This document shows positions 151-18,919 of a stretch of DNA of 31,171 nt, one piece after another. The DNA is from a virus. The notes under the pieces were generated by a model. The model saw nothing but the letters and a program-made list of their open reading frames with translations. It had not been told where the DNA came from and did not search any database. Numbering within the stretch: the stretch's first letter is position 1; each line of letters starts with the position of its first letter. The DNA is taken from positions 1 through 31,171 of IMG/VR virus record IMGVR_UViG_3300018405_000046; one strand, 5' to 3'. A program made the position numbers and the translations under genes.

Positions 151-424
151 CCCCTGTCCGAACGGTCAGCCCCAGAGAGAACGGCGCTCACAAGGGCGCT
201 CTGGCCCCCTATGGGGGAGTGCGGGCGCGGGCGGGCGGGAAAGTGCCCTTCCATAACCAGACCAAATTTTTGACTCTGGTTAATTTCTGACCAATCCCTA
301 TCCCGCTCCCTGAACGATCCCTGATCTGTCTCGGCTGGCTATGTGTCTTTCATAGAGCGCTCTTAGTCCGAGCCAGATCGTGCTACTACCCAGAGGGTAG
401 GAAGATGCAGAAGAGGTAGGCTGT
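151..424. other. untranslated genome-end region with hairpins and a G4 motif
   Basis: No convincing gene is present on either strand. The stretch holds a 5-bp hairpin with a TAT loop (205-217), a G-rich motif (223-239), an 8-bp inverted repeat with a 13-base loop (254-261 with 275-282), a degenerate copy of the tandem repeat (308-331) and a 6-bp hairpin (386-400). No promoter matching the phage consensus is seen here. This density of structure fits a packaging or concatemer-processing region, but that role is inferred from position only. Confidence 0.6.
223..239 (+). other. putative G-quadruplex motif
   Basis: Four GGG runs at 223-225, 229-231, 233-235 and 237-239 are separated by loops of 3, 1 and 1 bases, a canonical short-loop G4 pattern, and a GGGGG run lies just upstream at 213-217. 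The G-rich strand is the plus strand, opposite to the coding strand of all genes. It may simply reflect local GC richness. Confidence 0.45.
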
Positions 425-1210: not shown

Positions 1211-1483
1211 TCAGGCAGGAACTACCGGCACTTCACCTGCATCGCTTACCAAATGCCACGGGTCAGTCGGAGCTGTACCCTGAGCGATAGCGATGTCTGA
1301 TACGTTAGTGCCGTCTGATACCAGATAGGCAGCACCGAAGCGCTTACCGGATACCAGAGCGTCATTCACTGCGGCAGTTGCAGATGCAAGGTCTGTTGCC
1401 AGAACCACAGAGATCGGCAGGGATGCTACAGTTGCGTTTACAGCTTTACGGGGCAGATCGCCCACTTGGTTTGAAGTAGCCAT
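1211..1483 (-). CDS. probable capsid decoration / head-fibre-like protein
   Basis: A 90-residue protein rich in Ala, Val, Ser and Thr with no charged clusters. Its segment GKRFGAAYLVSDG, followed by an AQGTAPTDPW motif and a C-terminal VVPA, resembles small phage head-fibre or decoration proteins; this is a recollection of family style, not an alignment. The ATG at 1483 has AAGGAG upstream. Context supports abundant expression: a perfect-consensus promoter (1621-1643), a structured leader that shares a conserved element with the major capsid leader, and an intrinsic terminator straight after the stop, which make it a dedicated strong cassette. T7 has no equivalent gene after large terminase. 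Alternatives are another minor virion protein or an unrelated abundant late protein. Confidence 0.55.
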   Translation of the reverse strand: MATSNQVGDLPRKAVNATVASLPISVVLATDLASATAAVNDALVSGKRFGAAYLVSDGTNVSDIAIAQGTAPTDPWHLVSDAGEVPVVPA

Positions 1484-1620
1484 TCTTGTTTCTCCTTATT
1501 TCATTATTGATATATAATAGAGTGGGGTAGGAACCCCTCCCCGGAGGGGGAGGGGACTAGGGCGCTCTATGCAATCTAGTCGTCCTATACTCTCTATACT
1601 CTCCTGTTATTTCTTCCCCG
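1484..1620 (-). promoter_or_regulatory. structured 5' leader of the decoration-protein gene
   Basis: This untranslated leader holds a perfect 9-bp all-GC-but-one stem (CCCCTCCCC/GGGGAGGGG, 1534-1555) with a 4-base loop, and next to it the conserved GACTAG/CTAGTC element at 1555-1581. The second element recurs in the capsid leader at 18841-18867 with 25 of 27 bases identical. A shared ATAGAGAGTATAG tract lies upstream of the element in both leaders. A role in RNase III-type processing or mRNA stabilisation is plausible but not shown. Confidence 0.65.
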
Positions 1621-1643
1621 CTCTCCTATATTAGGGGTTAATT
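1621..1643 (-). promoter_or_regulatory. phage RNA polymerase promoter (perfect consensus)
   Basis: On the minus strand it reads AATTAACCCCTAATATA followed by GGAGAG, with transcription expected to start at 1626. It is identical to the copies at 18897-18919 and 28546-28568. Spacing and the AATTAACCC upstream half closely resemble the phage T3 promoter. It drives the decoration-protein cassette. Confidence 0.9.
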
Positions 1644-1696
1644 CCAAGCCCTTGATTTACAATGACTTTTTGAGATGTAATTCTGACGCCTCAGGG

Positions 1697-3532
1697 CTAC
1701 CCGAAGCGGTTACGTCTTCCGGCCTTCCGGGCACCTAATGCACTGCGACCCGTCTGAGGGCGCTCAGGGATGCCTGTGAGCCATTCTCTGCGAGTAACAG
1801 GGTCATTCCATGCCTGAAGCTTAGCGACCTCCTCAGCGCGTCTACGGGCCTCCAGAGCGGTCTGGGTATCGAAGTCCAATCGCTCAACCACATAGCGCAC
1901 TGCACCGGCCAAAGCGTCAAGGCGGTCATCATGCCGCAGAGCGCCCTTGTCGCGTGTGATCATCGCCATCTGGTGTATGAGTCGGTAGGTGCTCCGAACC
2001 TCAACAGGGTACTTCTCCGTGCTCTCAGCGTCCTTCTCGACCACCTCCGGGCTGATTACGATGCGACCTGAGCTGATCAGTGGTTCAAGGGTGTCAATGA
2101 TGCGAAGCTCTTTCTGACCCGTCTCCCACGTCTCCTCTATCGTGACAGGGTGATCCTTGGCGAACAGGGGCTTCAGCATGGACGCGTGAGCGCCGTTACC
2201 AAAGTTCCGCTCTATCACCACGGTCTTGACCGAATGCCGCTTAGCGACCTCCACGAGGCGCTGTAGCTTGTCCTCTTCATAGCCGCCCGGAACGCCACCT
2301 GTGTCCACGATGTAGACGAAGGCACCAATCAGCTTGATGACCGCATAGGCCATCTCGTCTGCGTTCTTTCCGCCACCAGCCGGGTCAATATACATGACTG
2401 CTTGATCATAAGGACGGTATTCATAGGAGTTCGGGACAGCCCTGTACATCTTGAACTTGTTCCCGAGGCAGACCGAGTGATACCGATTGCGATCATCTGA
2501 GGACCGAACAGGCAAGCAAGGGCCTTGATCCGTAGTGAAGTCAGCAACAATCAAGTTGTGAACCTTCAGTGGGAAGCGTTCCTCGTCAGTCAATGCAGTG
2601 TTAAGCATGTACTGAAGCTGGAACTTGGCCTTGCCCATAGAGATTTCTTTCTCTATAAGGGTCTCTTCTGGGAACATCTCAGGGCAAGTAGGTTTACCCA
2701 AGTCACCATTCATGCCACCGCCGGTCTGCAAGCTTGGGTCTTTCTCTATATCCCTACGGATAAGAGGTGCAAGCATGGCCCCGTATGTCTCGATCTCCTT
2801 CTCTGTCGGGTATCGACCCGGCCAGATGCGGATTTCATAGCCACGGGCAGGAAGGTTATTGTAGATGGACTCAGCGGACTGAGGTGTGCCAAGGTATATT
2901 ATATCACCCTCAGCACAGATTGACTCGAACTCTTTGGTCAGCTCCTCAAGGACCTCCCTTGATCCAACCGTCCTTGAGTTCTTCATGGACTCAATATCAT
3001 CCGCAATGAGTACGTCAGCTCGGGAGCCCTGAGCGTTCGTGTCCACACCTAAGCACTTAACCGATGGAGACTTGTCCACACCTTTCAAGAACCAGTGAAC
3101 ATCGAATGCCTCTACTGAGGCCCGATCCCCTGCGTTCTCATCTGGAACAAGCATCCAAAGGAAGTCCAAACCTTTGATGATCTGGATTACGAAAGATGCA
3201 ATCTCCTTGGACATCTTACCGCCTGCGGAGAATATGAGTACCCTTGTGCTTGGGTTATGTATCAGCCGGAACACAGCATAGATTGCCGTGAGAGTAGTCT
3301 TCGCCTGCCCTCGCTGGGCTTCCACCATGCGGTACTTAGGTCCGCCGAACAGCCACAAGCAGATGTCTGCCTGTATCCTGTTCATGTTTGGATTGCCACG
3401 GATCAGGGTGTTGATAACAACCTGAGCGAAGAGAAGGAAGCCATCCTCTGTGAAAGGGAAAGCTTCCTGAACTTCAGTGAGTGCATTGAGGCGAGACCTT
3501 CCATCAACGGTACTGATCTCGCGTTTAGCCAT
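1697..3532 (-). CDS. terL: terminase large subunit (ATPase-nuclease)
   Basis: 611 residues, close to T7 gp19 (586). It packages concatemeric DNA into the prohead and cuts at the terminal repeat. A Walker A-like segment EAQRGQAKTT lies at 71-80 and a Walker B VLIADDIES at 174-182. The C-terminal RNase H-like nuclease has the acidic residues expected of the family: D383 in YIDPAGGG, E441 in VVIERNFG, and D535/D536/D539 in RHDDRLDAL. The ATG at 3532 is preceded by GGAGAG that belongs to the promoter at 3538-3560, so the transcript from that promoter has an 11-base leader. It lies immediately after the small subunit, as in T7. Confidence 0.97.
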   Translation of the reverse strand: MAKREISTVDGRSRLNALTEVQEAFPFTEDGFLLFAQVVINTLIRGNPNMNRIQADICLWLFGGPKYRMVEAQRGQAKTTLTAIYAVFRLIHNPSTRVLIFSAGGKMSKEIASFVIQIIKGLDFLWMLVPDENAGDRASVEAFDVHWFLKGVDKSPSVKCLGVDTNAQGSRADVLIADDIESMKNSRTVGSREVLEELTKEFESICAEGDIIYLGTPQSAESIYNNLPARGYEIRIWPGRYPTEKEIETYGAMLAPLIRRDIEKDPSLQTGGGMNGDLGKPTCPEMFPEETLIEKEISMGKAKFQLQYMLNTALTDEERFPLKVHNLIVADFTTDQGPCLPVRSSDDRNRYHSVCLGNKFKMYRAVPNSYEYRPYDQAVMYIDPAGGGKNADEMAYAVIKLIGAFVYIVDTGGVPGGYEEDKLQRLVEVAKRHSVKTVVIERNFGNGAHASMLKPLFAKDHPVTIEETWETGQKELRIIDTLEPLISSGRIVISPEVVEKDAESTEKYPVEVRSTYRLIHQMAMITRDKGALRHDDRLDALAGAVRYVVERLDFDTQTALEARRRAEEVAKLQAWNDPVTRREWLTGIPERPQTGRSALGARKAGRRNRFG

Positions 3533-3537
3533 CTTGT

Positions 3538-3560
3538 CTCTCCTATATTAGGGGTTTATT
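3538..3560 (-). promoter_or_regulatory. phage RNA polymerase promoter driving terL
   Basis: Matches the consensus at 22 of 23 positions (AATAAACCCCTAATATA then GGAGAG). Transcription is expected from 3543. The promoter overlaps the stop codon of the small terminase gene, and its +1 to +6 GGAGAG supplies the ribosome binding site of the large terminase gene. Confidence 0.88.
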
Positions 3561-3852
3561 CTTCCCTAACGAACTTGACCACGTTGCCCTGTTGGGCAGA
3601 CCTGATCTTGTCCAGACGCTGCTTAAGTTCAGACTGAGCATCGTCTTCCATCGGAGCGCAGCCAACACCGTTGACCTCAACCCACTTGCCAGCAGCTTGT
3701 AGGGCACGAATGTCGATAACTGCATCTGCATCTGCACCTTCCTCCAGAAGCTCAATCATATGCTCTACTCTTTTGGTGTAAGCCTTAGACACAAGTCCGT
3801 GAAGTTTACCTAGAGAGTCTTCTGAAGCGCTATTCTTGTTTCCTTTGTCCAT
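3556..3852 (-). CDS. terS: terminase small subunit
   Basis: 98 residues, against 89 for T7 gp18. It should recognise DNA and regulate TerL during packaging. The protein is mostly helical and acidic in the middle (MIELLEEGADADAVID at about 32-47), with a C-terminal charged helix (ELKQRLDKIRSAQQG) that would contact the large subunit. No direct motif proves the function; the call rests on size, helical character and position between the holin-like/HNH genes and terL. The stop codon overlaps the terL promoter. The start codon at 3852 is 2 bases from the stop of the upstream HNH gene, with GGAGG upstream. Confidence 0.82.
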   Translation of the reverse strand: MDKGNKNSASEDSLGKLHGLVSKAYTKRVEHMIELLEEGADADAVIDIRALQAAGKWVEVNGVGCAPMEDDAQSELKQRLDKIRSAQQGNVVKFVREE

Positions 3853-3854
3853 TG

Positions 3855-4310
3855 TTAGCCTCCTTTGGTCCAGCCTTTGTATTGAGTCTTCTTACCTCGA
3901 TTGACAAGACTCATGTTTCGTTTACACAAGCCTTTCTCTCGACACAGCTTACTAAGATTACTGCCTGTGACTTTGTTCCCTTCAGGGTCGATCAGGAAAT
4001 ACTCCTTTGCTTTGGAGTATTCCGAGTTGTACTGATTACTGCACCACTCTAGGTTTGCTACCGAGTTGTCTGCCTTGTCCTCGTTTATGTGATTTACTTG
4101 AGGCAGGCCTTCCGGGTTGTCCAAGAAGTGCGATGCAACGAGACGGTGCAAGTACATTCGCTCCGTCTTTCCGTTGGTGCTAAGTGTCACTCTAGCATAC
4201 CCATCTTTGGTTAGCTGAGGTTTAAGCTCCCTCCCTCTAGTTACATTGAATACCCTCCCTTCAGAGGTTACACGGTAATTAGGGTGGCCCTCTACTATCC
4301 TCTCGCTCAT
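3855..4310 (-). CDS. HNH homing endonuclease with NUMOD4 domain
   Basis: 151 residues. An N-terminal NUMOD4-like segment (IVEGHPNYRVTSEGRV) is followed by the HNH core at about 53-90 with LHRLVASHF (H55), VNHINEDKADNS (N73-H74) and ANLEW. The last 45 residues (from about FLIDPEGNK to GWTK) look like a C-terminal NUMOD DNA-binding repeat. The 5' end overlaps the holin-like gene by 32 bases in another frame, and the gene sits between it and terS, splitting the usual T7 order 17.5-18-19. The start is ATG at 4310 with GAGGT eight bases upstream. It is related in layout to the HNH gene at 727-1158, but the two proteins are clearly diverged. Confidence 0.88.
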   Translation of the reverse strand: MSERIVEGHPNYRVTSEGRVFNVTRGRELKPQLTKDGYARVTLSTNGKTERMYLHRLVASHFLDNPEGLPQVNHINEDKADNSVANLEWCSNQYNSEYSKAKEYFLIDPEGNKVTGSNLSKLCREKGLCKRNMSLVNRGKKTQYKGWTKGG

Positions 4311-4566
4311 TGTTATTACCTCGCTGGCTTAGTGCTCTGTGAATGAATTTATTAAATTGAACCAAGGTGGTGTCTAGGTTCTTAATGGCCTGAGTGTTCA
4401 AGGCCAACTGTTTGCCTAGCTCTGACCTGACTTCTGCTACTTCCAGCTTGTCAGCCTTAGTTTCTTTCAACTTCTGTACGTCTGAGTACATGAAGATCAG
4501 ACCAGCTGCTACAGGCACCAACAAGGCAACAACGGCCCCGAGCAGGCCGTCACTGCTTATCCTCAT
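4279..4566 (-). CDS. holin-like single-TM protein
   Basis: 95 residues. Residues about 8-27 form one strongly hydrophobic segment (LLGAVVALLVPVAAGLIFMY), followed by a charged, coiled-coil-like helix (about 30-75) and a hydrophilic, highly charged C-terminus. Position directly after the tail fibre genes equals that of T7 gene 17.5 (class II holin, one membrane segment, 67 residues). A signal-anchored membrane protein with a long coiled coil could equally be an inner-membrane spanin. Only one such gene is visible, so holin is preferred from position. The ATG has AAGGAGG upstream; the 3' end overlaps the HNH gene. Confidence 0.6.
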   Translation of the reverse strand: MRISSDGLLGAVVALLVPVAAGLIFMYSDVQKLKETKADKLEVAEVRSELGKQLALNTQAIKNLDTTLVQFNKFIHRALSQRGNNNEREDSRGPP

Positions 4567-4575
4567 CTATCCTCC

Positions 4576-4923
4576 TTAAGCTGGCTTGGTAGGCCAATCT
4601 ATGTTGTCAGGGAACCCTTCTTGATCCGGGACATCCCTAAGGGCTTGCCTGTATGATCGTGCTTCTTTCTCAAAGATAGGGTCTCCAAGGTCAAGAGCTT
4701 TGTTCACAAGGTTGTCAGCTTCTGTCAATAGAGTGTTACGCTTTTCACGAACTTCTTGTTCTATTACAGAGGAGGGTACTACAAACCTATTGGATTTGAA
4801 ATCAAATTCCTTACCTGAATATTCTTCTGCTGAGGCCACCTCAACTTCTATCCAGTTCTCTTTATCTGTAGGTACTGGGAACTCCTGAACACCACTTCCA
4901 TCTGTTTTAACGTAAACTATCAT
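4576..4923 (-). CDS. tail fibre assembly chaperone-like protein
   Basis: 115 residues. The C-terminal half carries the signature of phage tail-assembly chaperones: a basic/Leu start (REKRNTLLTEADNL), then ARSYRQALRDVPDQEGFP and a terminal DIDWP-type motif, here DNIDWPTKP. The N-terminal half (IVYVKTDGSGVQEFPVP) is a small beta-rich head. Its start overlaps the fibre stop as ATGA (4920-4923), so translation is coupled to the fibre gene, as expected for a protein that helps fibre folding or attachment. T7 itself lacks this gene at that site; fibre chaperones are common beside exchangeable fibres in other phages. Confidence 0.75.
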   Translation of the reverse strand: MIVYVKTDGSGVQEFPVPTDKENWIEVEVASAEEYSGKEFDFKSNRFVVPSSVIEQEVREKRNTLLTEADNLVNKALDLGDPIFEKEARSYRQALRDVPDQEGFPDNIDWPTKPA

Positions 4924-6578
4924 ACTTTTACCCCCATTATCCGTTTGACGGTCCTTGATGCTATCTGGTCGGTTGTCCCATCAACTACAAAGGTATTGTT
5001 ACCTGTCCTCTTTATCCCGATAGTTGGTGATCTTCCTCCCATCAACCCGACACCTGTCCAAGTCCCCACGTGAATCCAGCCCGAGATTTGCTCTCCGTTG
5101 TACTCCCCGTTTACGATCAGCCAATTATAGTCATCCCAGTTTGTTGCTATATTGCTAGATGAACCTTTGGTAATCTGCCCAATCCATTCTAAAGACAGTT
5201 CAGTGCCCCCGCCCAACAAGGACACCCAAGGTCCCCATCCGCCACTTATAGATGACGATCTGTAAAGAATCTCTGAGCTTGTGTAGTCTGTGGCGATCTG
5301 GGCAATTGTGTCAGCCCCGGGGTTTCTTAGCACAAGTACGTTGCCATAATGTACAGATAAAGGCAGGTTTGTGTTTGTTTCCACCCGGTAAGACCCTGCT
5401 ATATTGAGCAGGTCCATGTCTCCTGCGTAACCGCCTACTACCATAAGATGGTCAGTGTCTATGGAAGCAGCAGCAGCAGCAGCATCCAGTGCAGACTGCT
5501 CAGCATCCTGAGCATGACCAAGCGCTGTGTTTGAATGGCCAAGTGCATTTTGGGCGTACCCTTGAGCGTCCTCAGAGAATCCAAGAGCTGCCAAAGCGCT
5601 ACCGTTTGAGTTAGTGGCCCACTGTTGAGCCTTCTTGCTGTAGTGCTTTGAGCTGTACTCCGTGCCGTTACCTTCAACCACAGGAACGTCTTCAGCAGTC
5701 TCAGCCCAATTCTTAGACTCAGTTGCAGAGTCGGAAGAGTCATCCGCGAAGTTAGCTGAATTATTAGCGCTGGACAGTGCGTTTCCTTCTGAGATGCCAG
5801 CAGCGGTTGCACTAGCCTGAGCGTTGTCCGCGTACCCAGATGCCTGACCTGCGCTGATCCCTGCCTGAGTAGCAGAGTTACCTGCATCTCCTGCAAACCC
5901 TTGGGCTGCATCCCGTGCTACTTCTGCTAATACCCGTGCTGCCTGAGCTGCATTGCGAGCAACGATAGCAGCATCCTTTGCAGACTCGGACAACACACGA
6001 GAGTTATCGGACTTCACCGAGTAGTGGTAAGAGCTATACTCAGAACCACTACCTTCGGGGACTGGTGCATCTACAGGATACTGTGCCCAGTTGTAAGCCT
6101 CAGCAATTGAGTCACCGAGGGACAGCCCTTCTTCACCTATGATAACATCTGATACCTGAAGTGTACCCACGTTGTTCAGATCGTACCCTTCAAAGTCAAT
6201 GTCCGCCGAGAATCTTACAGAGGAAAGGAACCGGAACCCGTCAGGGAACCAACCATCCTGAAACTCATGCACGGTGTACAGAGTCTGCAAGAAGCTGTTG
6301 TTCAGGTTTGCCTCTCCAAACTTATTGCCACGGGAGAAGTCGGTGTACGGTGCGTCCTTGGGCATCACTCTCCTGATTCTTACGACAGCTCCAGTGGAAG
6401 GTGCCACATCCAGCTCCAGAGAGTTTGAGCTTGTAAGCTGGAAGTTAAGATCAGGGACACCATCGACAAGGACCACGATGTCTGTATTCCGAATGTAGCC
6501 TTTGTCAGGCCCGGTGAACCCGAACGTAAAAGTCCGGGTGGAACCATCACCGATGTACTCGTTATAGCTAAAGGCCAT
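4920..6578 (-). CDS. tail fibre protein (T7 gp17-type N-terminus)
   Basis: 552 residues (T7 gp17: 553). Residues 1-115 are the conserved tail-binding domain of T7-type fibres (YNEYIGDGSTRTFTFGF, PYTDFSRGNKF, LNNSFLQTLYTVHEFQDG). Residues about 190-375 are an Ala/Ser-rich rod, predicted to trimerise. It is flanked or interrupted by two copies of a repeat, NWA then about five residues, then DxPVxEGxGxEYSSxHYS, at about 163-189 and 290-316. The C-terminal region contains a pyocin-knob-like stretch (GSYRVETNTNLP, VLVLRNPG, YRSS, GGWGPWVSL at about 397-455) and a unique tip that should determine the receptor. No auto-cleaving chaperone domain is evident. The ATG has AAGGAGG upstream. Confidence 0.93.
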   Translation of the reverse strand: MAFSYNEYIGDGSTRTFTFGFTGPDKGYIRNTDIVVLVDGVPDLNFQLTSSNSLELDVAPSTGAVVRIRRVMPKDAPYTDFSRGNKFGEANLNNSFLQTLYTVHEFQDGWFPDGFRFLSSVRFSADIDFEGYDLNNVGTLQVSDVIIGEEGLSLGDSIAEAYNWAQYPVDAPVPEGSGSEYSSYHYSVKSDNSRVLSESAKDAAIVARNAAQAARVLAEVARDAAQGFAGDAGNSATQAGISAGQASGYADNAQASATAAGISEGNALSSANNSANFADDSSDSATESKNWAETAEDVPVVEGNGTEYSSKHYSKKAQQWATNSNGSALAALGFSEDAQGYAQNALGHSNTALGHAQDAEQSALDAAAAAASIDTDHLMVVGGYAGDMDLLNIAGSYRVETNTNLPLSVHYGNVLVLRNPGADTIAQIATDYTSSEILYRSSSISGGWGPWVSLLGGGTELSLEWIGQITKGSSSNIATNWDDYNWLIVNGEYNGEQISGWIHVGTWTGVGLMGGRSPTIGIKRTGNNTFVVDGTTDQIASRTVKRIMGVKV

Positions 6579-6587
6579 GTTGCCTCC

Positions 6588-9500
6588 TTATTCAAGTTCA
6601 TCTTCGATTGCGTTGAACGCTTGGTTGATACCAACTGCCTTACCAAACGGTATGACTTTCTGCCACTGGTTGATAACGTCCTCTGACCCGTAATTAGAGT
6701 CAGGGTCGAATAGGAAGTCTGAAGTCTTCCTAACTGTCCTGACAGCATCCTCAGCAAGGCCAAGGGACGGAACAGAGTTGAAACCGTAGCTTCTGAAGCC
6801 ATACCTGTTAGGCGCTGCCATGAGATCATCAGGGAGGGCACCTATTGTGGCCAGACCGTCTGCTGCGATGCCAAGAGCGGAAACCTGACCCATCCTGTTC
6901 CATGTGCCAAAAAGCAGGTTCTGAGTGTCAAAGGCATTCTCATTCATGTTTAGAGCACCGGCTACTGAGTGCGTCATCATCCCCAGACCAGCAGACCATG
7001 CAAGGATCAGAGCGCCTGCTGCCCTATCGTGCTTGATGTCATGTATTAGCTGCTTGTCCAGTGATGTGATTGAGAAGGTACGGAACTGGTAAAGAGTCAT
7101 ACCCAACAGTCTGTGCATGAAGGTTGGGGTCTCCCCTACGAAAGACCTCTGCATGGAGCGAGCAACTAATCGGTGGACACCAATCGTGTATCTCTCTCTC
7201 ATCTCCTCTGGCATTCTGTCGAAGTCAAATGTTGTTATAGACTTACCATCGTACTCATCTATATTAGGGTTATCCTTTGACCAAGCTTTTAGGTCATCAA
7301 GAAACCCATCAGACCATCCGGCATCCTTCATCTCCTGCTCTCGTAGCCTCAAATCCTCTCCTTCAAATATCCATCTTCTTATGTTCCTGTTCAAGGAGCG
7401 AGCTGCTATCTTCTCTCCACCACCCTGAAACATCCTGAAGAACGAGGTAAGCTCTTGCACTCTTCTTCCTTGAGCAAGCCACATATCAAGCTTACCCCCA
7501 AAGCCTTGCTTGAACCCTGCCTCTTCAATCTCCTCGGAGCGCATTGTGTTAGGGTAGATCACATGGTCCTCACCTGCGTACTGCATCACCTCATCAAGCT
7601 CTCTCAGCTCTGGGTCTTTCATTGCACCTGAGAACTTACCGCCTTCCCTTTGTGCTCTTGATCCTTTGATTATAGTGGCAGCGGCAGGGACCTCTCTTGC
7701 CACGTTGATCAGACCACGGTCAGTCAGCGCACGAGACAACTCGGGTATTGCAGAGAGACCTACTGCCTGAAGCCTCAGCATTGCCGTGATGTCACGAAGC
7801 CGTGACAGGTTTCTGCTCCACCCTGTGTGAGCGTACTTGTTGATAGATCGACCATAGAGCATGTCCACACCTTCCTTGATCATCCCGATCTGGACCTCAA
7901 CCTCTTTCGGGTTCATGCCTTGGTTTAGTGCGTGCTGGTGCGTAGCCTCAAGTACCTCGTTGAACTCTGCTCTGGTCCTGAAGCCAAGCTTGGCCATAGC
8001 TGCACCACCCGCTGCGTCAATCGTGTAAGACTCAAGCAGCTTGGGCAGGTTGGTATCAAACAAGTCGATTGCTGAAAGGCCGTTTACCTCTACCTTCACG
8101 TTGGGGGAGAAGGAGATGCGAGCACGGTCACTCATGTGCTTAACTGCTTCATCCTTGGCTGTGGACTCAAGGAACTCTTCGATCACATCCCTTGGTACTC
8201 CAGCCTCTTCAAGATGACCCCTTAGTTCATCAATGTCCTTCCCTGTTGTCTGACGGTAGGACTCAGCCAGAGAGGTCTTGTTCTTCCTTGCACGTGCAAT
8301 ATACGCATCAGCAACTGCATCAGCACCTTCTGGCCTCAGCTTGTAGCGGCCATTCTGGTATGCCCGTGACAGAACTTCCCGCACCTTGTCTTCACCGTGT
8401 TGACGAAGGGCCATGAAGATTGCATGGTCATCTACAATTGTCGGAGCGTAGTTCTTGTCAAGGTCAAGGTTCTCAAAGCCAGCCTCTCCTGCATCTTTCC
8501 TTATCTTCCCTGCTGTGTGGAACTGATCACGGACACCCGCAGCGGCGTGCTTCACTCCGGGATCATTGTAAGTTCCGGGATACTTTGCCTCCATGAATAC
8601 TTTCTTGTGGAACTCCTCTCGAAGCTCTCTGTCCAGCTGTGAGCCGATATACTGACCGTGCTTTCCGGGTATCTTGTATTGCTTCCCAGATGCAGCAGCA
8701 TAGTCCTCGAAGCCTTCTTCAAGCCTGTACCGCATAGCTGCCCTGATTCTTCTCTGGTTGATCTGGACTCTAGCAGCCGCTGTGACCTTAGCTGCCTCGC
8801 CACCCTGAGGTGCCTCAAACAAATGGTAGTTCAACCCACGGATAACATAGTTCTGGGAGTTGGACAGGTAGGTGTGCAAGCCTTGCGCGTACTTAGCCAC
8901 TGTCTTACCAAGAGGCATGGAGCCTATCAAGGAGGTGGGCACATTGGCACCATCCTGCAAGAACGGCATTATCTTCCGTACCATACGCTCTGGTATGTTG
9001 AAGGTGTTCCCTATCTTGTTCTGAGAGAACCCTACCCTCGCAGCACTCGCTGAGTCCGCACCATCAACAGGCTGAACTGTCCCAAGAGCTGGTGCCGGTG
9101 TAGCCTCATCAAGAGCCTTGGGTGCGTCAGGTTCGGCCTCTGGTCGCTTGGCCTTTAGGGCCTCCACGTTCTCCCGGTACAGGACGGACTTCATAGGTAC
9201 ATCGAAGCCGCCGCCCTCTTGTGAGTGAACCCACGCAATCTGCTTACTTCGCGGCATACCTCTGAGCTTCTTGAGCTGGCTTGCTGCTCTCTTGGCATTC
9301 CTTGCATTATCCACCCGGCTTCTGATCTTGGCTAGACGCCCTTCGATCTCGGCCTTAGTCATCTTGCTCCGTGCGCTCCTGTCTCCCAGCTCCTTACGAT
9401 AGCGGTGCTGGGCGTCACGGACAGCCGCTCTGGCGCTTTCGATCTCCCTTCTGATCTCTGCATCTCTCCTTGCAACGGCGTCCTCAAGATCGTTCTGGGC

Positions 9501-10634: not shown

Positions 10635-10643
10635 ATCGCCTCC

Positions 10644-11756
10644 TTAATTGAATTTGAAATTATCATCAAGCTGGAATGTCTCCTGCTTGTCTCCTGTACC
10701 TTTCGTGACTGTGTACCAGCCTCCTGCTTTGTTAATCCTGTCACGGAACCTCTTGGATACCTTGTCCGTTGTGATGTCAGATGCGAATTTAACTCTGATC
10801 CCTTCTGGACCCCAGCTATATTCTTCTACGGCAGGTAGTCCGGATATTTCAGATGATGCAAGATTGAACATGTTGAGCCTCCTATTCAGAAGCCCTCTGG
10901 TTTTATTGCCACCTGCACCTATGAAGTCAAAGGTTCGGATCATGGACTCAGCCGAGTATCCATCCTTGGCAGCTTTGGTTGCCTTGGGGTTCTTCCCGGT
11001 GACACCCTGACCTCCATTGTAAGTCATATCCGTCCAATACTGTTGTTCCCATGCTGTCATCTTGTCGAAGCCGGGGACTTTACTAGATGCACTGGATCGG
11101 GCAGACTCCAAAGAGGACTGCATAAGAGCCTTTGCCTGACGCTCAGTCAGACCCTCCTTGACATTAACAGGTACACCTTCCACCACAGGCCACTTACTCT
11201 GGTCATCAGATAGCCAAGCTTGTGGTATCTTGTTTCCGAACCCAATTTCCATATCAGAGAAGGTCTTTCCATCAGGACCTTTACCTTCCAATGACTTGAA
11301 CGGGAAGTACATAGGTTTACCATTGGCACCTGTCTTACGTCCTTTTCCTTGGGAGTTCTCAATTCCTTGTAGAATCCTAATGTATTCGTCCTCAGCCATA
11401 TCCTTATCAGCCGGGGCAGCTAGGGTGCCCTCTTCACTCTTCTGTATAGCCATCTGGTCCAGTGACTCTTCCCTTCGGTTCCTTAGCTCTTCCTCCGAAG
11501 GGTCAGCATAAACAAAATCATCGTCACCCAAAGGATCGAAATCAATAGGGCCGAAGTCAGGGACCGCGAAGCTAGTTGCTTCATACTCTACCTCTCCTTG
11601 TGGTTCGATTGCCTCTTGCAGAGGCTGTTGCTCAACAGGAACTGGATCAGCCGCTGTTCGTCTTTCTTCAACTGGAGGCCGGAAGGACACCTTGCTGGTA
11701 TCCTCAATCCCGAACCCCTCCGCTATTGCCTTTCCTATATCTTCAAGTACTGCCAT
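10644..11756 (-). CDS. lysozyme-like (GH24-type) virion protein
   Basis: 370 residues. The first 120 are acidic and low complexity, probably disordered. Residues about 124-300 resemble a T4-lysozyme-type muramidase: GIENSQG with candidate catalytic E133, MEIGFGNKI at 169-177 (compare TIGYG of GH24 enzymes), YNGGQG at 246-251, and TRGLLNRRLNMFN at 286-298 (compare the GLxNRRxxE endolysin motif). The last 70 residues are beta-rich. It lies between the gp15-like and gp16-like genes, so a virion-associated peptidoglycan hydrolase used at DNA entry is more likely than the lysis endolysin. The start overlaps the upstream stop as TAATG. Confidence 0.65.
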   Translation of the reverse strand: MAVLEDIGKAIAEGFGIEDTSKVSFRPPVEERRTAADPVPVEQQPLQEAIEPQGEVEYEATSFAVPDFGPIDFDPLGDDDFVYADPSEEELRNRREESLDQMAIQKSEEGTLAAPADKDMAEDEYIRILQGIENSQGKGRKTGANGKPMYFPFKSLEGKGPDGKTFSDMEIGFGNKIPQAWLSDDQSKWPVVEGVPVNVKEGLTERQAKALMQSSLESARSSASSKVPGFDKMTAWEQQYWTDMTYNGGQGVTGKNPKATKAAKDGYSAESMIRTFDFIGAGGNKTRGLLNRRLNMFNLASSEISGLPAVEEYSWGPEGIRVKFASDITTDKVSKRFRDRINKAGGWYTVTKGTGDKQETFQLDDNFKFN

Positions 11757-13834
11757 TAGAACCCTCCTATTCCAGCTTCTTCAAGGCTCTTAAAGTTTCT
11801 CTCCTTCAGTCTCTTCTCTTGTGCTGTTTTGAACCTCATGTACTCAGTACGCATCTGAGTGAGAGGCACTGGCCTTGTGTTGAGGACTTCTCCTGCTGGC
11901 CCAACGAAGCTTACCATCCCGCCCTCTGGGTCTACCTCAGGGATCAACTGATCAAAGTCGTATCCATAGGTTGCAAGCAGAGGTTCGATCTGATCTCTCT
12001 GTCCCTCAAGGATTGCTTGGAAGCCCATGTCCAAGGCATCTGGGTGTAGCCCGGTAAGCTGCCTCATTCTCTGAGGCGACCCTTTCACTCGAACACCGCT
12101 ACCCAGTGTAGTCCAGTTGTTGCTGAAGTACGCCTTGACTTGTCTCTTGGCTACCTCAGATGTTGGGTCAGGGAAGGAAGCGATCTTCTTGCGTACCTCC
12201 GCCATGTAGTACGGCCTTGCATAGTCCGGGATGTCAGTGACAAAGATGCCATCATCAATGGAGGACGTTACATCAGCCACTGCTTCTTCAATGTCCCTCT
12301 GGCTGCGAGGTATAGGGTTCCTGTCCCTCCTCTGGGCCATAGAGAGTGCCTGAGGCGCAGTCATACCCATCTCTCTCAGGGCGAGGGTGTTGTTCAGGAT
12401 GTCACGCTCACGAGCCTTCAAGCTGCTCATGTAGAAGTCTTGAGCTGACGGGGACATCTGTTCGATCCTGTCCATTGTGACCTTCAGGTTATCTGGCAAG
12501 TCCTCTATCTGCCCTGACCCTACAATCGCAGCCACGTTGCTGTTAGCAAGGGCAGAGAACGCAGCCTTCCATTCAGGGATGGGAACACCGAGCCGTGCGG
12601 AGTTGTCACCCCACATCTGGTCCGCTCTGATCTGCAATGCAGCGATCTCCTTAGCCTGCTCTTCCTCCGGGACATTCTTGCGAATCTGAGTGATGCCAGC
12701 CTGAAGGTACTGTTTCCACCCGGCTGTGATTGCACCTTCAATCTCCTTAGGCTCAGCACCGGGGATCGTTGTTCTCTCACCAGACTGTACAGCTTGGATT
12801 AACTGCTGCTGTCTTGTTCGTGCTGCTATTGACTCCCTTGCCTTTGAGAACATGGAGGCAGCCTGAGCCTGAGTCATAAACCTACCCTCAGTCTCCTTGT
12901 TGCGCTTGTCGATGTAGCGAGTAGCTTCTTCCGCTGTCATCTTTCCAGAAAGGAAATCGGAGGTGAAGGTAGAGAACTCAAGACCAAGCTCACCTGCATT
13001 AACCGAATACTTCTCGTTCTTGAGCTGGTCATGCTTAGATTGTAGCTGACCCTTTCGCTCGTACAGTGTGCTGCCACGCTCTCCCTTGAACTGGCGGGTA
13101 AGCTCGATTGCTGTCTCGCTGTCAGAGTTCAAGGCGACCTCGGTTAAGATAGCCTCCTTCTGGCTCTGAGTCAGCTTCATGGCAGCGGTCCTCTCCTCGA
13201 ACCTCTTCAGGATTGAGGCTGCGTCTCCAGACATACCTATCTCTGAGATAAGAACATCCTGCTCGTCTTGCATACGCTTCTTGATCTCATGGTCAAGCTT
13301 TGCGGCCTCACGAGAGGACACAACCTGAGGCATGATCTCAGCGAGGCTGAGGGTTGTGAGCTTCTGTATCTCCTGATAGTTGTCGTAATCCTTGTACTCA
13401 CTAGCCAGCTCTCCGTCCACCTCAGCATAGGTGTCACGTACAATCTCTTCCCATTCCTCGTCAGAGTAGTCCTGCTCTGCAAGCTGGTTGAGCTTTGCCT
13501 GAGCTTTAAGAGTCTTGTTCTTGACAGAGACAACCATGTGTGCCTTGTACCCGCCTTCTGTCGAATCGGGTGTAGGCATCATGCCAAGGACCGCCCGTTG
13601 AGTCTGGATGATCTTGTCCGCCTCAACCTGCTTATCAAGCTTTGCAGCGTAAGCCTCACCAGCAACACCTGCGAAGTCCACCAAGCCTTTCACTATATCA
13701 ATCGCGCTTGTCTTCTGCTCAACCTGGAACTCTGAACGGTTGACCGATGCAGGGTTTACAGAGACTCCTTGGAATCTCTGTGCTTCAGGTTGGCGATCAA
13801 ACGGATTCTGAACCCCTCTTCTTTGTATCGCCAT
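11756..13834 (-). CDS. gp15-like internal virion protein
   Basis: 692 residues (T7 gp15: 747). It is the second ejected core protein and forms the periplasmic tunnel with gp16 in T7. The sequence is almost entirely helical and charged, with no membrane segment. It has a family-like start (residues 8-60, FDRQPEAQRFQGVSVNPASV then a VKGLVDFAGVAGEAYAAKLD helix) and repeated helical hairpins rich in Gln and Glu. The assignment rests on size, composition and place between the gp14-like and gp16-like genes. Both its start and stop use TAATG overlaps with its neighbours (13834 and 11756), indicating coupled translation of the core proteins. Confidence 0.85.
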   Translation of the reverse strand: MAIQRRGVQNPFDRQPEAQRFQGVSVNPASVNRSEFQVEQKTSAIDIVKGLVDFAGVAGEAYAAKLDKQVEADKIIQTQRAVLGMMPTPDSTEGGYKAHMVVSVKNKTLKAQAKLNQLAEQDYSDEEWEEIVRDTYAEVDGELASEYKDYDNYQEIQKLTTLSLAEIMPQVVSSREAAKLDHEIKKRMQDEQDVLISEIGMSGDAASILKRFEERTAAMKLTQSQKEAILTEVALNSDSETAIELTRQFKGERGSTLYERKGQLQSKHDQLKNEKYSVNAGELGLEFSTFTSDFLSGKMTAEEATRYIDKRNKETEGRFMTQAQAASMFSKARESIAARTRQQQLIQAVQSGERTTIPGAEPKEIEGAITAGWKQYLQAGITQIRKNVPEEEQAKEIAALQIRADQMWGDNSARLGVPIPEWKAAFSALANSNVAAIVGSGQIEDLPDNLKVTMDRIEQMSPSAQDFYMSSLKARERDILNNTLALREMGMTAPQALSMAQRRDRNPIPRSQRDIEEAVADVTSSIDDGIFVTDIPDYARPYYMAEVRKKIASFPDPTSEVAKRQVKAYFSNNWTTLGSGVRVKGSPQRMRQLTGLHPDALDMGFQAILEGQRDQIEPLLATYGYDFDQLIPEVDPEGGMVSFVGPAGEVLNTRPVPLTQMRTEYMRFKTAQEKRLKERNFKSLEEAGIGGF

Positions 13835-14439
13835 TATCCCCTCCTTATTGCTTCACTACGGGAAGTTGACACCCTAGTACCAAGTTTTCCTGCTGCACTT
13901 CCAAGAGATATACCAGCTCCAATTGCCTCGAACATGGACGGTTGTTTGATCGGTGAACGGTCTAGGTTGGAATCTGACTGAGACCGAATGCCCTCGGCAG
14001 TCTGGTTTATCCTGTCAAGGTTCGAATCTCTTCTGTACACAATGTCAGCCGTTCTCTGGCCTAATCCAGTTCCAAGGTCAGCAAGCGCAACATCCACTGT
14101 CTGGCCATATGTCCCTGACGCAGCAGACTGAAGCTCAATGCTTGAGCGAGCCTGCATATATTCCTTCTGGGCCTGCAAGGATTGAGCGTGGCTGTCATAC
14201 AGGATGTCAGCCTCTTCATCATCAAGCTCTCCGTACTGACGGATAGCCTCCTCCTTGACCCTTTGATTGTACGCCTCCTGCTGCTTGGCTTGCGCCTTAG
14301 CTTGCTGAGACTGAGACACGTAGGACAATGCCGTACCTGCCAGAGCAATCCAGCCTGCGTTGGCAGCGGCAAAGGTCGCAGCCGCACCAGCAGCGGAAGA
14401 GGCAGCGCTAACCAGCGCCGGTATAGCTGCTACTGCCAT
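13834..14439 (-). CDS. gp14-like internal virion protein
   Basis: 201 residues (T7 gp14: 196). Residues 1-40 are Ala-rich and hydrophobic, suited to membrane insertion, as expected for the protein that forms the outer-membrane pore when ejected. A Gln/Ala/Lys-rich helix follows (QQAKAQAKQQEAYNQRV), then a region with GTYGQTVDVAL and two imperfect SNLDR repeats (about 141-167). Start and stop both overlap neighbouring genes as TAATG. The identity is inferred from length, hydrophobic start and position between tail tube B and the gp15-like gene. Confidence 0.86.
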   Translation of the reverse strand: MAVAAIPALVSAASSAAGAAATFAAANAGWIALAGTALSYVSQSQQAKAQAKQQEAYNQRVKEEAIRQYGELDDEEADILYDSHAQSLQAQKEYMQARSSIELQSAASGTYGQTVDVALADLGTGLGQRTADIVYRRDSNLDRINQTAEGIRSQSDSNLDRSPIKQPSMFEAIGAGISLGSAAGKLGTRVSTSRSEAIRRG

Positions 14440-16949
14440 TAGATTCTCCTTCCTCTTCTTGAGAACACACCATCGAACTGGAAGTCCCGTACCTCAAAAG
14501 GTCTGTGGTCTTTAGTCCTAAGCTCAAGTGTGTACGTGTTAGCCTTTCGGCGAATTGGTATAACGTGTTGGCCCGGAACAAGAGGTGCGTACCCTACAAG
14601 GTTCTCTGGTCCACCCATGGTCCTGTTTCCGTACTGATAGGTGCGTGATTGATTATACTGGTTAGTTACAACAGCCTCGACATCTCCTGTCCTATCATAA
14701 GTTACGTGGTACTTGCCAACAGTCAGACGGTCAAGGTTAATTGCCTCCCCATTCTGATCTTTCGCAACAGGGTTCGTAGGTATGTAGGTGCAAAGGAAGC
14801 TAAGCCCTATAACCACGTTTACCGGAGACTGGTCACTCTCTGCTATGTCCTCATACGTGACAAGCAGACCTCCCTCTCGGATGAAAGAGATTGCCAGACC
14901 GGGCTGGTTGCACCCTTGGTTATTTGGACAGGCATCAGCCCTCACAAGGACTATATCCTCTTCAGACTCATCAGGGTAAGGGTCATCCATTTCCCATCGC
15001 TCAAGAGTTGGGTTCCACGCCATAGGTGTCCTGAATCTTCCATCCAGACGAACCTGATAGTCAAGCCCGTACTCCAGTGGGTCCCCAAGGTCAATACGCT
15101 CAACTACCGTACCATTCCCTCTTCTTATAACCAAGAGAAGATCGGTTGTGTTGAACCTGACATCGCTGATCACTGCATCATCACCAAACACCCACTTACC
15201 CCAAGCACTCTGAACCTTCTCATTTCCTTGCCAAAGCCACTCGTACACGTACAAGGCGTTAGGGACATCTGCTGTCCTGATGACTAGCATATTCAGCGAT
15301 GTAGAAGAGGCCATGATAAGAGGCTCACCCTCTATGTACTGGTTGACATGATCTGTCACGGGCCTTGCACGCTTGGTGTCTGTCACAGAGTCTGTGAAAT
15401 ACTCCCTGACCCCTGTGAATCTTCCGTAGTCGAAAGCGAAGAAGATGTTCTCACCAGATGCAACAGGAGGGACAGACAGGTTACTCTCAAAGGAGGTAGT
15501 CTGTATCATGGTTGCGTTTGAAGGGGATACTGCATCTTGTCCGGGCAAGAGGAACTGACCGTTCTCGCTGAAGAACACAATGTCCCCATCGAAGGGTATT
15601 GAGGATTGAAGGATGTTAACCTTGGCTGCATCCGCGTAGATGTCTATCGGGTCAGTGTCTGTTGCAACCTGTGCAGACTCCCTGAAGAAATCATAGAACC
15701 TGCCTGATCGGGTCATAACTACTGCCTCACCCGATGTAAAGAACAGCCTGTTTTGGAAGATACCTATTGACTGTATTCGTTGAGGGGTATCAGTGTCAAT
15801 GAAAGTAGGCAAAGGGTTAGTTCTGTCGTCACCAACTCTTCTTTCTTCCCATGGAGCAAGCTCTAGGCTGAACTGGGAAACACCACCTATTACGCCTGTT
15901 CGTACAAGCTGCACCGGCATGGTGGCAGGGTCTGCCCCTTTCACTATTCCGGGCGCTGGGGCTTCAACCCAAGATACCATATCCCCATTAGTTGGCTCCG
16001 CCTTAAGCCAGAAGTTTGCGTTCTTGTCCTTCGACCCCGGTGGGTCTATCTCCACCAGCATCCCCGCTGGTGCAACAGGTGGGAGTTTTGAAATCTCAGA
16101 TACGGAATCCTTGACCACAATTAGGTTGTTTCCATCAGAATCATCTGTAGAGGAAATCTTGAAATCAGAACCATCCTTTCTTTTAATCTGGATAACATTA
16201 TCCGCTATCATTGAGAAGTCATAGTTGTCAGAAATTCCACCTGTCTCAGCGGCATAATCTGTACCCCAATCCATTCCAGAGAATGTTGAACCCGGATACG
16301 GACCGGGGCTTGCCTCTGACCATCCCTCCATTGCCTCTCTCAACTTAGATGCTGCAACAGATGGTCTTACTCCTTCAACGTGATCAGATGCTGCACCAGT
16401 AGGGGCCTTATACCACACTGCTGCCTCTCCTCCTCCGGGAAGGTCAACCCTAACTGTTTGCTGCTGACCATAGTTTATATACTGAACGTAGATCAATGCA
16501 ACATTACCAGCTCCCTCAGAGGTTAGATCCTTTGAGGCTGATACTTGTTTAGATTTGTTCACCAAGAATGTGACATCACCTATAGTCTGTGCTTGGATGT
16601 TCTCTCTAGCGTTATCAGACTGTAGGTACGTTGCGGCATCTGAATCAGTGACTGCAACTACCTGCTCTGTTCCATCCCTTCTCCACACTCTGACATTTCC
16701 ATTGTCGCTAACGGAGAGGAAGTATTCTTCTCCTGTCCCGCGATCATAGTAATGCCACTTAATGTTGTCCGGGAACGCAATGTCGTCCAGCTTGCCTTCA
16801 AATATTGTACCCGGTCTTGTTACCAGACCTCTCACAACGTCAGGTCTGAAATTGACAGACTCTGTGCATTGTCCTGCAAGCCTAACCTTGTCAGGCTGCT
16901 GACTTACTCCCTGCACCGGCCTGCCTTGTGTAGATGTAATGTAGCTCAT
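14439..16949 (-). CDS. tail tubular protein B (nozzle, gp12-like)
   Basis: 836 residues (T7 gp12: 794). It forms the hexameric tail nozzle below the gatekeeper ring. The N-terminus MSYITSTQGRPVQGVSQQPD followed by GQCTESVNFRPDVVRGLVTRPGT is highly characteristic of this family. The rest is beta-rich, as expected for beta-propeller and jellyroll domains, with QRIQSIGIFQNRLFFTSGEAVVM-like stretches typical of the central part. The ATG at 16949 is 2 bases after the tail tube A stop, with GGGAG upstream; the stop overlaps the gp14-like start as TAATG. Confidence 0.96.
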   Translation of the reverse strand: MSYITSTQGRPVQGVSQQPDKVRLAGQCTESVNFRPDVVRGLVTRPGTIFEGKLDDIAFPDNIKWHYYDRGTGEEYFLSVSDNGNVRVWRRDGTEQVVAVTDSDAATYLQSDNARENIQAQTIGDVTFLVNKSKQVSASKDLTSEGAGNVALIYVQYINYGQQQTVRVDLPGGGEAAVWYKAPTGAASDHVEGVRPSVAASKLREAMEGWSEASPGPYPGSTFSGMDWGTDYAAETGGISDNYDFSMIADNVIQIKRKDGSDFKISSTDDSDGNNLIVVKDSVSEISKLPPVAPAGMLVEIDPPGSKDKNANFWLKAEPTNGDMVSWVEAPAPGIVKGADPATMPVQLVRTGVIGGVSQFSLELAPWEERRVGDDRTNPLPTFIDTDTPQRIQSIGIFQNRLFFTSGEAVVMTRSGRFYDFFRESAQVATDTDPIDIYADAAKVNILQSSIPFDGDIVFFSENGQFLLPGQDAVSPSNATMIQTTSFESNLSVPPVASGENIFFAFDYGRFTGVREYFTDSVTDTKRARPVTDHVNQYIEGEPLIMASSTSLNMLVIRTADVPNALYVYEWLWQGNEKVQSAWGKWVFGDDAVISDVRFNTTDLLLVIRRGNGTVVERIDLGDPLEYGLDYQVRLDGRFRTPMAWNPTLERWEMDDPYPDESEEDIVLVRADACPNNQGCNQPGLAISFIREGGLLVTYEDIAESDQSPVNVVIGLSFLCTYIPTNPVAKDQNGEAINLDRLTVGKYHVTYDRTGDVEAVVTNQYNQSRTYQYGNRTMGGPENLVGYAPLVPGQHVIPIRRKANTYTLELRTKDHRPFEVRDFQFDGVFSRRGRRI

Positions 16950-16951
16950 AT

Positions 16952-17599
16952 TCAGCTCCCGATATAATCACGGCGAGGGAAGATGCGAGAGGCATACGAA
17001 TTGCTATTAGGGCCTCCCATCTGAGCGATTGCAGATGCAGCCTCAGCATTGTCTGAAAGGTAGTTCCTGCGTCTGTGTCTCGCTTCTTCTCGCTCAAGCC
17101 TAGACATTGCACGATTCTCGTCTTCAACCTGAAACTGCCAACGAGTGCTGTCCACCTCCAAGTCCTGAGCGAACATCCGTCTTGCAACGTATGCAACTGC
17201 CATCCTGAACACAGGAGGGGTCTGCTCGAACTCAAGCTCTATGATGAATGACAGCTCTATCTTGCCATCAACAAGACGAGGTGTAAGGTCATAGGTGTGG
17301 TTTATCATATCGTAGAGTTTGTTCCCACGAATCACCACCCAGTTGCCACGGTTTGCACCTTCAGGCAGAACTGATAGGGCGTTGTTCGGAACGATCACTT
17401 CGCCTGTTGTGCTACCGGAAAGCTTCCAATTGTACTCTTTGTTGAACCACCAGCCCTGTGTCTGTATGTCAATGCTGACCTGCTCGATAGTGCTAAGTGC
17501 CATAGCCGAGTCAAGATCAGGGTCATCAACTGAAGCAACAGGGTCCCTTCCGATACCTCGGAGCGCCATATTGATTGCGCTTAGTTTGGTTGTTGCCAT
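16952..17599 (-). CDS. tail tubular protein A (gatekeeper, gp11-like)
   Basis: 215 residues (T7 gp11: 196). It forms the dodecameric adaptor between portal and nozzle. Family features visible are the start TTKLSAINMALRGIGRDPVAS, the TQGWWFNKEYNW block near 50-60, and a C-terminal arginine-rich helix (SRLEREEARHRRRNYL). The ATG at 17599 has AAGGAGGT upstream, directly after the capsid terminator at 17612-17648, so transcription reaches it only by read-through. This is the same arrangement as T7 gene 10 - Tphi - gene 11. Confidence 0.94.
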   Translation of the reverse strand: MATTKLSAINMALRGIGRDPVASVDDPDLDSAMALSTIEQVSIDIQTQGWWFNKEYNWKLSGSTTGEVIVPNNALSVLPEGANRGNWVVIRGNKLYDMINHTYDLTPRLVDGKIELSFIIELEFEQTPPVFRMAVAYVARRMFAQDLEVDSTRWQFQVEDENRAMSRLEREEARHRRRNYLSDNAEAASAIAQMGGPNSNSYASRIFPRRDYIGS

Positions 17600-17611
17600 A
17601 TTACCTCCTTA

Positions 17612-17648
17612 ACGAAAGAACCCCGCTACCAGTGATCAGGTAACGGGG
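17612..17648 (-). terminator. intrinsic terminator after the major capsid gene (Tphi-like)
   Basis: On the minus strand a 10-bp stem, CCCCGTTACC/GGTAGCGGGG with one G-T pair and an 8-base loop, is followed by TTCTTTCG. It lies between the capsid stop and the tail tube A ribosome binding site, the position of T7 Tphi, where partial termination boosts capsid over tail transcripts. Confidence 0.88.
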
Positions 17649-17652
17649 CAGA

Positions 17653-17668
17653 GTCTCACATGTGAGAC
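17653..17668 (-). repeat. 16-bp perfect palindrome behind the capsid stop codon
   Basis: GTCTCACATGTGAGAC is perfectly self-complementary and starts 5 bases beyond the capsid stop codon, just upstream of the terminator. A closely similar element (GTCTCACACGTTAGAC, 14 of 16 identical) overlaps the stop-codon hairpin of the gene at 27336-27611. Possible roles are transcript 3'-end stability or protein binding; none is demonstrated. Confidence 0.7.
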
Positions 17669-17673
17669 AAGGA

Positions 17674-18795
17674 TCAGGCGATGGTACGGGTAGCTTTCGC
17701 CTTACCCTTAGCCTTCGCAGTGATCAGATCGGACTGTCCAGCACCGGCAGATGCACGGCGTACAACAGCGATGTTGTCATAGCGATCCGGGATCGCACCC
17801 TCAGCCATCCAAGAGTCGATGAAGTAGCTCTTGGTCTTCTTATCGAAGTAGATGTCACCTTGCATGGAAATGGTGCGACCAGCCAGCAGTGCATCCGGGC
17901 CGAAGATGACAGCCATGGCGTCATCCTTCATCCACTGAAGAACATCGTATCGGTTGCCGTTGTTGTCGTTTGACAGCAAGTGGTGCGCTGCACCTTCGTG
18001 CGGGTTCAGTTTCATCTGAGTGAACTCAGCGGAACCCATGATCGGCAGTCCGTAGCCCTTCAGAGTGCCAGTCAGCGCATTGAACGCCATACCACCAGTC
18101 TCGTTGTCACCGCCCTGAGACTGTGCAACCAGACCGTAGTCAACCAGCAGTCCGAACTCATGGATCGGTACGATGATCTTCATGCCCTGAATCGGTGTGC
18201 GCTGTGCAACCAGACCCATGATAGCAACTTCGATAGCTGCAATCAGTTTGTACGGATCACCGTCATCTGACTCATCAGAGTTCAGCTCAACCTTGATCGC
18301 TACACCATGACCAGACACCCGGCGGACACCACCAGTGATAGTGTTGGCATACGGATCGTACACACCACCAGTGCCAGCGCCTGCCAGCAACTGCTGAATA
18401 ACCATCTGGTCTTCGAGCTGCTTGATCTTGCCCATCTGGTTGCTGGCCAGCTTCTGCTGTACCTTAACATCAGACTGGATGTCATGCAGTGAGTGAACAG
18501 TGTTACGGCCCAGAACGATGGTATCAACTACCAGTGCGTTCTTATCCATCTCAGTGCTGGTTGCTTCCGGCTCTTGTCCCGGAGTCAGCTTCTGGAGCTG
18601 GGTATCACCGATGTACTTGTTGGACACCATGTTGGTGCCGGTAACTTCTTCGACGTTGAAGTTCGCCAGCAGGTTCTCGCCCTTCTGGTACGCCTCATGC
18701 ACGACGTTGTTGAATCGCTCGATCAGGAGCGTATCGACCTCACCAGAAGCGGATACTGCCGGGTTAGTCAGGTTGTTATCGTTGGAACCAGCCAT
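17674..18795 (-). CDS. major capsid protein (gp10A-like, HK97 fold)
   Basis: 373 residues (T7 gp10A: 345). Family traits include the long N-terminal arm with VDTLLIERFNNVVHEAYQK, the segment VVDTIVLGRNTVHSLHDIQSD, a Gly/Pro-rich E-loop and central domain (IQGMKIIVPIHEFGLLVDYG), and a late QWMKDDAMAVIFGPDALLAG block. The C-terminus carries an unusual Lys/Ala-rich tail (about 355-373, TAKAKGKAKATRT). The gene has its own perfect-consensus promoter (18897-18919), a 107-base leader with a conserved hairpin, and a terminator, which together explain high expression. No 10A/10B-type frameshift extension is possible: the palindrome and terminator follow the stop directly. The ATG has AAGGAG upstream. 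Confidence 0.96.
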   Translation of the reverse strand: MAGSNDNNLTNPAVSASGEVDTLLIERFNNVVHEAYQKGENLLANFNVEEVTGTNMVSNKYIGDTQLQKLTPGQEPEATSTEMDKNALVVDTIVLGRNTVHSLHDIQSDVKVQQKLASNQMGKIKQLEDQMVIQQLLAGAGTGGVYDPYANTITGGVRRVSGHGVAIKVELNSDESDDGDPYKLIAAIEVAIMGLVAQRTPIQGMKIIVPIHEFGLLVDYGLVAQSQGGDNETGGMAFNALTGTLKGYGLPIMGSAEFTQMKLNPHEGAAHHLLSNDNNGNRYDVLQWMKDDAMAVIFGPDALLAGRTISMQGDIYFDKKTKSYFIDSWMAEGAIPDRYDNIAVVRRASAGAGQSDLITAKAKGKAKATRTIA

Positions 18796-18896
18796 TCAAA
18801 TTCTCCTTCTATTGAATACGGAAGGAGGAGGGAAGAGGGAGACTAGGGCGCTCTGAGCAATCTAGTCGCTCTATACTCTCTATTCTTTCTTTCCCG
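18796..18896 (-). promoter_or_regulatory. capsid leader with element shared with the decoration gene
   Basis: The untranslated leader contains GACTAG/CTAGTC arms at 18841-18867 enclosing ATTGCTCAGAGCGCC. The same block occurs at 1555-1581 with two differences, and the preceding ATAGAGAGTATAG tract is also shared. The rest, including the pyrimidine-rich stretch before the ribosome binding site, differs. A processing or stability signal common to two abundant late messages is the simplest reading. Confidence 0.7.
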
Positions 18897-18919
18897 CTCT
18901 CCTATATTAGGGGTTAATT
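18897..18919 (-). promoter_or_regulatory. phage RNA polymerase promoter (perfect consensus), capsid
   Basis: Identical to the copies at 1621-1643 and 28546-28568; transcription is expected from 18902. It overlaps the last base of the scaffold gene and corresponds to T7 phi10, the strongest late promoter. Confidence 0.92.

Follow-up and report, generated by a model that had tools for sequence, protein, structure and literature searches.

The two 27-nt blocks shared by the leaders of the major capsid gene and of the gene following terL are the same part of a cassette, consisting of a late promoter and an untranslated leader, which is located after terL and was copied before the capsid gene. Rather than standing alone between leaders that are otherwise unrelated, the 27-nt block is one section of this copied cassette. 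It belongs to an array of short units, and the interest lies in the array and not in the 27-mer; where SP6-like phages have duplicated leader blocks, these should be understood as portions of periodic arrays. SP6 RNA polymerase is in standard laboratory use, and phages of the SP6 group serve as models and in therapy; a strongly periodic element at the main non-coding sites of these genomes is a concrete target for questions on the start of replication and the protection of late mRNA.

The sequence analysed (the window) is an IMG/VR virus record of 31,171 bases from an SP6-like podophage, with the late genes on the minus strand and recognisable genes for terL, scaffold, capsid, portal and a family-A DNA polymerase. 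Its capsid protein shares 64–71% identity with those of other IMG/VR phages and 45–48% with those of SP6, K1-5, PP1 and Era103. The features under study are listed in Table 1. Two HNH endonuclease genes were located near the terL region (727–1158 and 3855–4310), and a tRNA gene on the minus strand (27177–27250). A search of the window against Rfam at the gathering score gave a tRNA as the sole match and no known RNA family at the leaders. It was also noticed that terL of Vibrio phage VEN (L087/L088) and of record G005 (L092/L095) consists of two pieces with about 0.7 kb between them, which looks like interruption by an insert.

Table 1. Positions of genes, putative promoters and leader elements in the window
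Feature	Position	Strand	Remarks
90-aa gene after terL	1211..1483	-	SP6 gp41/gp42 family, phrog_2725
GC hairpin, CCCTCCCC-CTCC-GGGGAGGG	1535..1554	-	Directly after the block; relatives have counterpart hairpins
Shared block copy 1, GACTAGATTGCATAGAGCGCCCTAGTC	1555..1581	-	Predicted hairpin: 6 bp, 2x2 internal loop, 3 bp
Array in leader after terL	1555..1604	-	TAG spacing 9,9,9,10; last two steps = 27-mer
Late promoter of SP6 gp41/42-like gene	1617..1641	-	Putative +1 at ~1626
Terminase large subunit (terL)	1697..3532	-	Immediately precedes leader copy 1
Major capsid gene, 373 aa	17674..18795	-	phrog_267
GC hairpin remnant, capsid leader	18827..18840	-	5′ arm kept, 3′ arm absent
Shared block copy 2, GACTAGATTGCTCAGAGCGCCCTAGTC	18841..18867	-	Stem predicted at only 3% within the leader
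Array copy in capsid leader	18841..18884	-	TAG/CAG spacing 9,9,9,10; one unit less than in copy 1
Late promoter of major capsid gene	18893..18917	-	Putative +1 at ~18902

As the sequence-only reading had reported, the block is present at both places on the minus strand with two differences (0 matches expected from 100 shuffles); both differences sit in the loop, and the 27-mer occurs exactly twice in the window. Each copy is preceded by a 25-mer, TTAACCCCTAATATAGGAGAGCGGG, which is identical at the two sites and has a TATAG start as in SP6-type promoters; judged by this sequence, the two 25-mers are putative late promoters. The block lies about 45 nt into the leader after terL and about 35 nt into that before the capsid gene, and the tract previously said to be common to the two leaders, ATAGAGAGTATAG, was found in both. 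Weaker copies of the promoter core were located at 3540, 23670, 27674 and 28548, with leaders in which the block is absent. Elsewhere in IMG/VR, the exact block was present in no records other than two contigs of sample set 3300018411, apparently from the same phage as the window. The block sequence was not found in the capsid leaders or after-terL leaders of the relatives compared; these phages keep the genes and not the 27-nt element, an outcome that the sequence-only reading had named as refuting its proposal.

Outside the block the two leaders had been described as divergent. Global alignment revealed, on the contrary, that the similarity extends from near −24 of the promoter until some 20 nt beyond the block, interrupted by two main gaps of 10 nt each, the first corresponding to AACAGGAGAG, which is one repeat unit, and the second to the 3′ arm of the GC hairpin. 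The capsid leader does lack the GC hairpin of the after-terL leader, as had been observed, and the alignment located the loss in this 3′ arm. Since the aligned part spans the promoter, the block and the sequence that follows it, we conclude that the promoter-leader cassette was copied, with small insertions or deletions. The duplication suggested earlier is supported, and it comprises the whole promoter-leader segment, with unit-sized gaps. An unusual likeness between the capsid and terL leaders of one genome was seen in Aeromonas phage Aer_P220 and IMG/VR record G005, too. The capsid leader of Aer_P220 (L064, L083) resembles the terL leader of its own genome with a score of 25.5, against a mean of 10.3, and is apparently a second, independent case of such likeness.

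Although the block is a genuine duplicate, it is not isolated, being part of a 9–10-nt periodicity that the sequence-only reading had missed; by the predicted fold, the 27-mer would be two array steps folded into a hairpin. TAG was not in excess over shuffles, only its spacing being unusual. When the window was scanned in 60-nt segments at 5-nt steps, 5 of 6,108 other segments reached the periodicity of the terL leader; the array of the capsid leader was not exceptional, with 40 other segments of the same scan reaching it. At one end of the window (1–160), a 31-nt tandem repeat, CAGGCCCCTGAGCGTACCCTGAGCGCTCTAG, was observed that amounts to three AG-headed steps of 9–11 nt on the minus strand, and Era103, Alpheus and AS51 have similar arrays close to the ends of their genomes.

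The same periodicity was detected in the relatives. Self-similarity at lag 10 was found in 20 of 23 after-terL leaders (combined z 12.4), and the values at lags 12–18 and 21–35 were mostly near 0. In 34 pooled leaders (24 after terL and 10 after RNAP), identical 4-mers recurred 222 and 276 times at spacings of 9 and 10 nt, respectively, versus 38 expected at each spacing (z 22 and 27, values that overstate independence since some pooled leaders are from related phages). Recurrence was also seen at 18–20 and 27–30 nt, as harmonics near 19 and 28; at 8 nt there was little of it, and at 11 nt almost none. The weighted spacing of about 9.5 nt differs from the 10.5-bp pitch of DNA. The units are headed by AG and are 1) of the AGGTA type in SP6, 2) AGTAGC in Alpheus, 3) AGAGC in AS51, and 4) AGTAAGC in VL73 and ECBP5, the unit AGAGAGTA being common to G003, G005, G006 and the window; the purine content of the leaders is 60–87% in most cases. 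When ten genomes were scanned, the terL leader exceeded all other segments in six and was equalled or beaten by one or two in three, G003 being the exception, and the RNAP leader exceeded all other segments in seven, a count that is biased for VL73, ECBP5 and G003, the RNAP-side sites of which were chosen from the scan itself. On the RNAP side, the array of Era103 failed to stand out, and those of AS51 and VL73 were only moderate. Unit words were shared between the two sites at 0.43 within genomes versus 0.21 between genomes, a difference reached in 0 of 20,000 permutations, which partly mirrors shared ancestry within genera. With regard to RNA structure alone, the initial 80 nt of the terL leaders were only slightly more stable than shuffles (mean z −1.0), and the leaders after RNAP folded more stably (mean z −2.2, n = 10). 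The possibility that the units are copies of the promoter start region was weak (p 0.05 with TATA included, 0.18 for representatives, and 0.002 for +1 to +12 only) and no weight is placed on it.

A literature search on repeats or origins of SP6-like phages returned nothing relevant, and an AG-headed 9–10-nt array after the promoters that follow RNAP and packaging genes has apparently not been described before. We tentatively suggest, at somewhat less than an even chance, that it represents a new kind of element near RNAP and terL, in which the spacing is kept across genera and the units drift together within each genome, and which might be recognised by a phage-specific reader of RNA or of opened DNA.

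Hairpins are a further part of these leaders. The leader layout of the group is a phage promoter, a purine-rich AG-headed array with 9–10-nt spacing and at least one hairpin, followed by the ribosome site. Compared with dinucleotide shuffles, 14 of 24 leaders before the capsid gene and 16 of 25 after terL had a folding z below −1.5, and in many relatives a hairpin lies between promoter and ribosome site, with stem sequences that are unrelated. The capsid-leader hairpin begins at +1 to +6 in SP6, K1-5, PM85, Klebsiella phage K13PH07C1S, Alpheus and VL73, which resembles T7 phi10, and for the capsid mRNA of SP6, K1-5, PM85, Alpheus and VL73 a stable 5′-terminal hairpin is predicted. Folding against shuffles revealed no notable hairpin in the capsid leaders of AS51, VEN, L005 and G004, and the group can therefore express its capsid without the structure. 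The terL leader ends in a hairpin with compensatory changes, five pairs being changed on both sides among eight SP6/K1-5-type phages; the hairpin preceding it gives no covariation because it is almost invariant in the same eight phages. In a set of 12 phages, 8 of 8 stem positions of the end hairpin had several pair types, a count inflated by the choice of this set by eye. One record labels the end hairpin as a predicted terminator.

For the window itself, both copies of the block, taken alone, were predicted to fold into 9–10 pairs (−8.6 and −9.0 kcal/mol). Within the leaders, the GACTAG/CTAGTC stem had a predicted pair probability of 0.84–0.97 after terL and of 0.03 before the capsid gene, where it loses to another fold, and the capsid leader as a whole did not fold better than shuffles (z −1.1 to −1.2). 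The proposal of selection on RNA can be retained for the architecture, as hairpins with unrelated stems occur in many relatives, but not for this particular stem.

The reading that we favour, giving it about an even chance, is that of a structured late-mRNA leader which was copied to the capsid gene. The cassette would give abundant late mRNAs a structured 5′ untranslated leader, in which hairpins and long-range pairing may shield the 5′ part of the RNA while the ribosome site stays open. We infer these two properties from those attributed to the T7 gene 10 leader. T7 gene 10 (phi10) has a late phage-RNAP promoter, a hairpin directly after it and an open ribosome site before the major capsid gene, and the capsid gene of the window likewise has a phage-RNAP-type promoter and then an untranslated leader. 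The T7 hairpin is at +1 and there is no array, whereas here the leader is longer, the shared hairpin lies about 45 nt (terL) or 35 nt (capsid) in, and the cassette is common to the capsid gene and the gene after terL. An arrangement similar to that of T7 phi10 was noticed at 27655–27688, where the transcript from a promoter would begin with a hairpin at +1 (GGAGAGAGCAATTTGTTCTCTCC).

A stabilising leader does not explain the fixed 9–10-nt spacing, the recurrence after the RNAP gene and the arrays at genome ends. The main rival, which we consider rather unlikely, holds that promoter plus array are transcription-primed origins of DNA replication or auxiliary sites, at which a purine-rich transcript would persist as an R-loop and prime synthesis, and the array would guide the helicase-primase or a single-strand binding protein; the capsid copy would then be a secondary origin. 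In T7, phiOR and phi1.1A/B are replication origins, phi1.1A/B being the primary one, and the SP6-like sites resemble them in having a promoter and a non-coding stretch directly after terL and the RNAP gene, respectively; the window displays only the terL-side promoter and tract, the RNAP-side sites being known from relatives. Such a role is in line with the position of the genome-wide outlier arrays, directly after terL as for phiOR (except in G003) and directly after RNAP as for phi1.1A/B (SP6, K1-5, AS51, Alpheus, G005, G006 and G003), with the purine-rich leaders, with the unit motifs common to both sites of one genome, and with the arrays at genome ends, including that of the window. However, T7, T3 and K11 have no 9–10-nt array: the lag-10 signal is absent from phiOR of all three and from T7 phi1.1B, T7 phiOR having a signal at lag 11 only (z 3.5), and the same array at these phiOR sites is thereby ruled out. 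In addition, the RNAP leader of Era103 is no outlier, origin mapping of SP6-like phages was not found in the literature, and hairpins and ribosome site are left unexplained; the SP6-like sites are candidate origins. The arrays also recall T7 SRL/SRR, short-repeat arrays at the genome ends, in being non-coding and composed of short imperfect units, and SP6-like phages, too, have arrays near their ends; SRL differs in its spacing of about 13 nt, which falls among the control lags, and in its restriction to the ends, whereas the leader arrays are spaced by 9–10 nt inside transcribed leaders.

Still less probable, in our view, is that the cassette has no function of its own and results from recombination between homologous promoters, by which leaders are copied, and from slippage, by which short units expand. 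Such an origin would agree with a copied segment that begins at the promoter, with unit-sized gaps and with the likeness of within-genome copies in only some phages. Slippage alone, however, is not expected to yield the same 9–10-nt spacing with differing units across many genera, with spacings of 8 and 11 nt much less enriched, nor would it confine the arrays to the same two loci. Processing by RNase III at the shared hairpin, as raised by the sequence-only reading, is the most improbable: processing sites of the T7 group (R0.3 to R18.5) are typically hairpins that follow phage promoters, and the leaders of Era103 and Aer_P220 are predicted to be able to form long rods, but the 27-nt block with its 9–10 pairs is much shorter and weaker than annotated T3 R18.5 (51 nt, −21.3 kcal/mol), lacks the stacked stem of about 20 bp with internal loop, in about 50 nt, of the T7-group sites, is barely formed in the capsid leader by prediction, and has no Rfam match.

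The gene at 1211–1483 had been taken for a decoration gene, for which sequence, structure search and literature gave no support. The predicted model of its product had no significant match in a PDB structure search, and the protein is a member of phrog_2725, the family that includes SP6 gp41/gp42. The database label of this family, 'acetyl-CoA acetyltransferase', looks like a transferred misnomer. This small gp41/gp42-like protein has the conserved pattern N..SGK..GA...A.G...W...ITPA.
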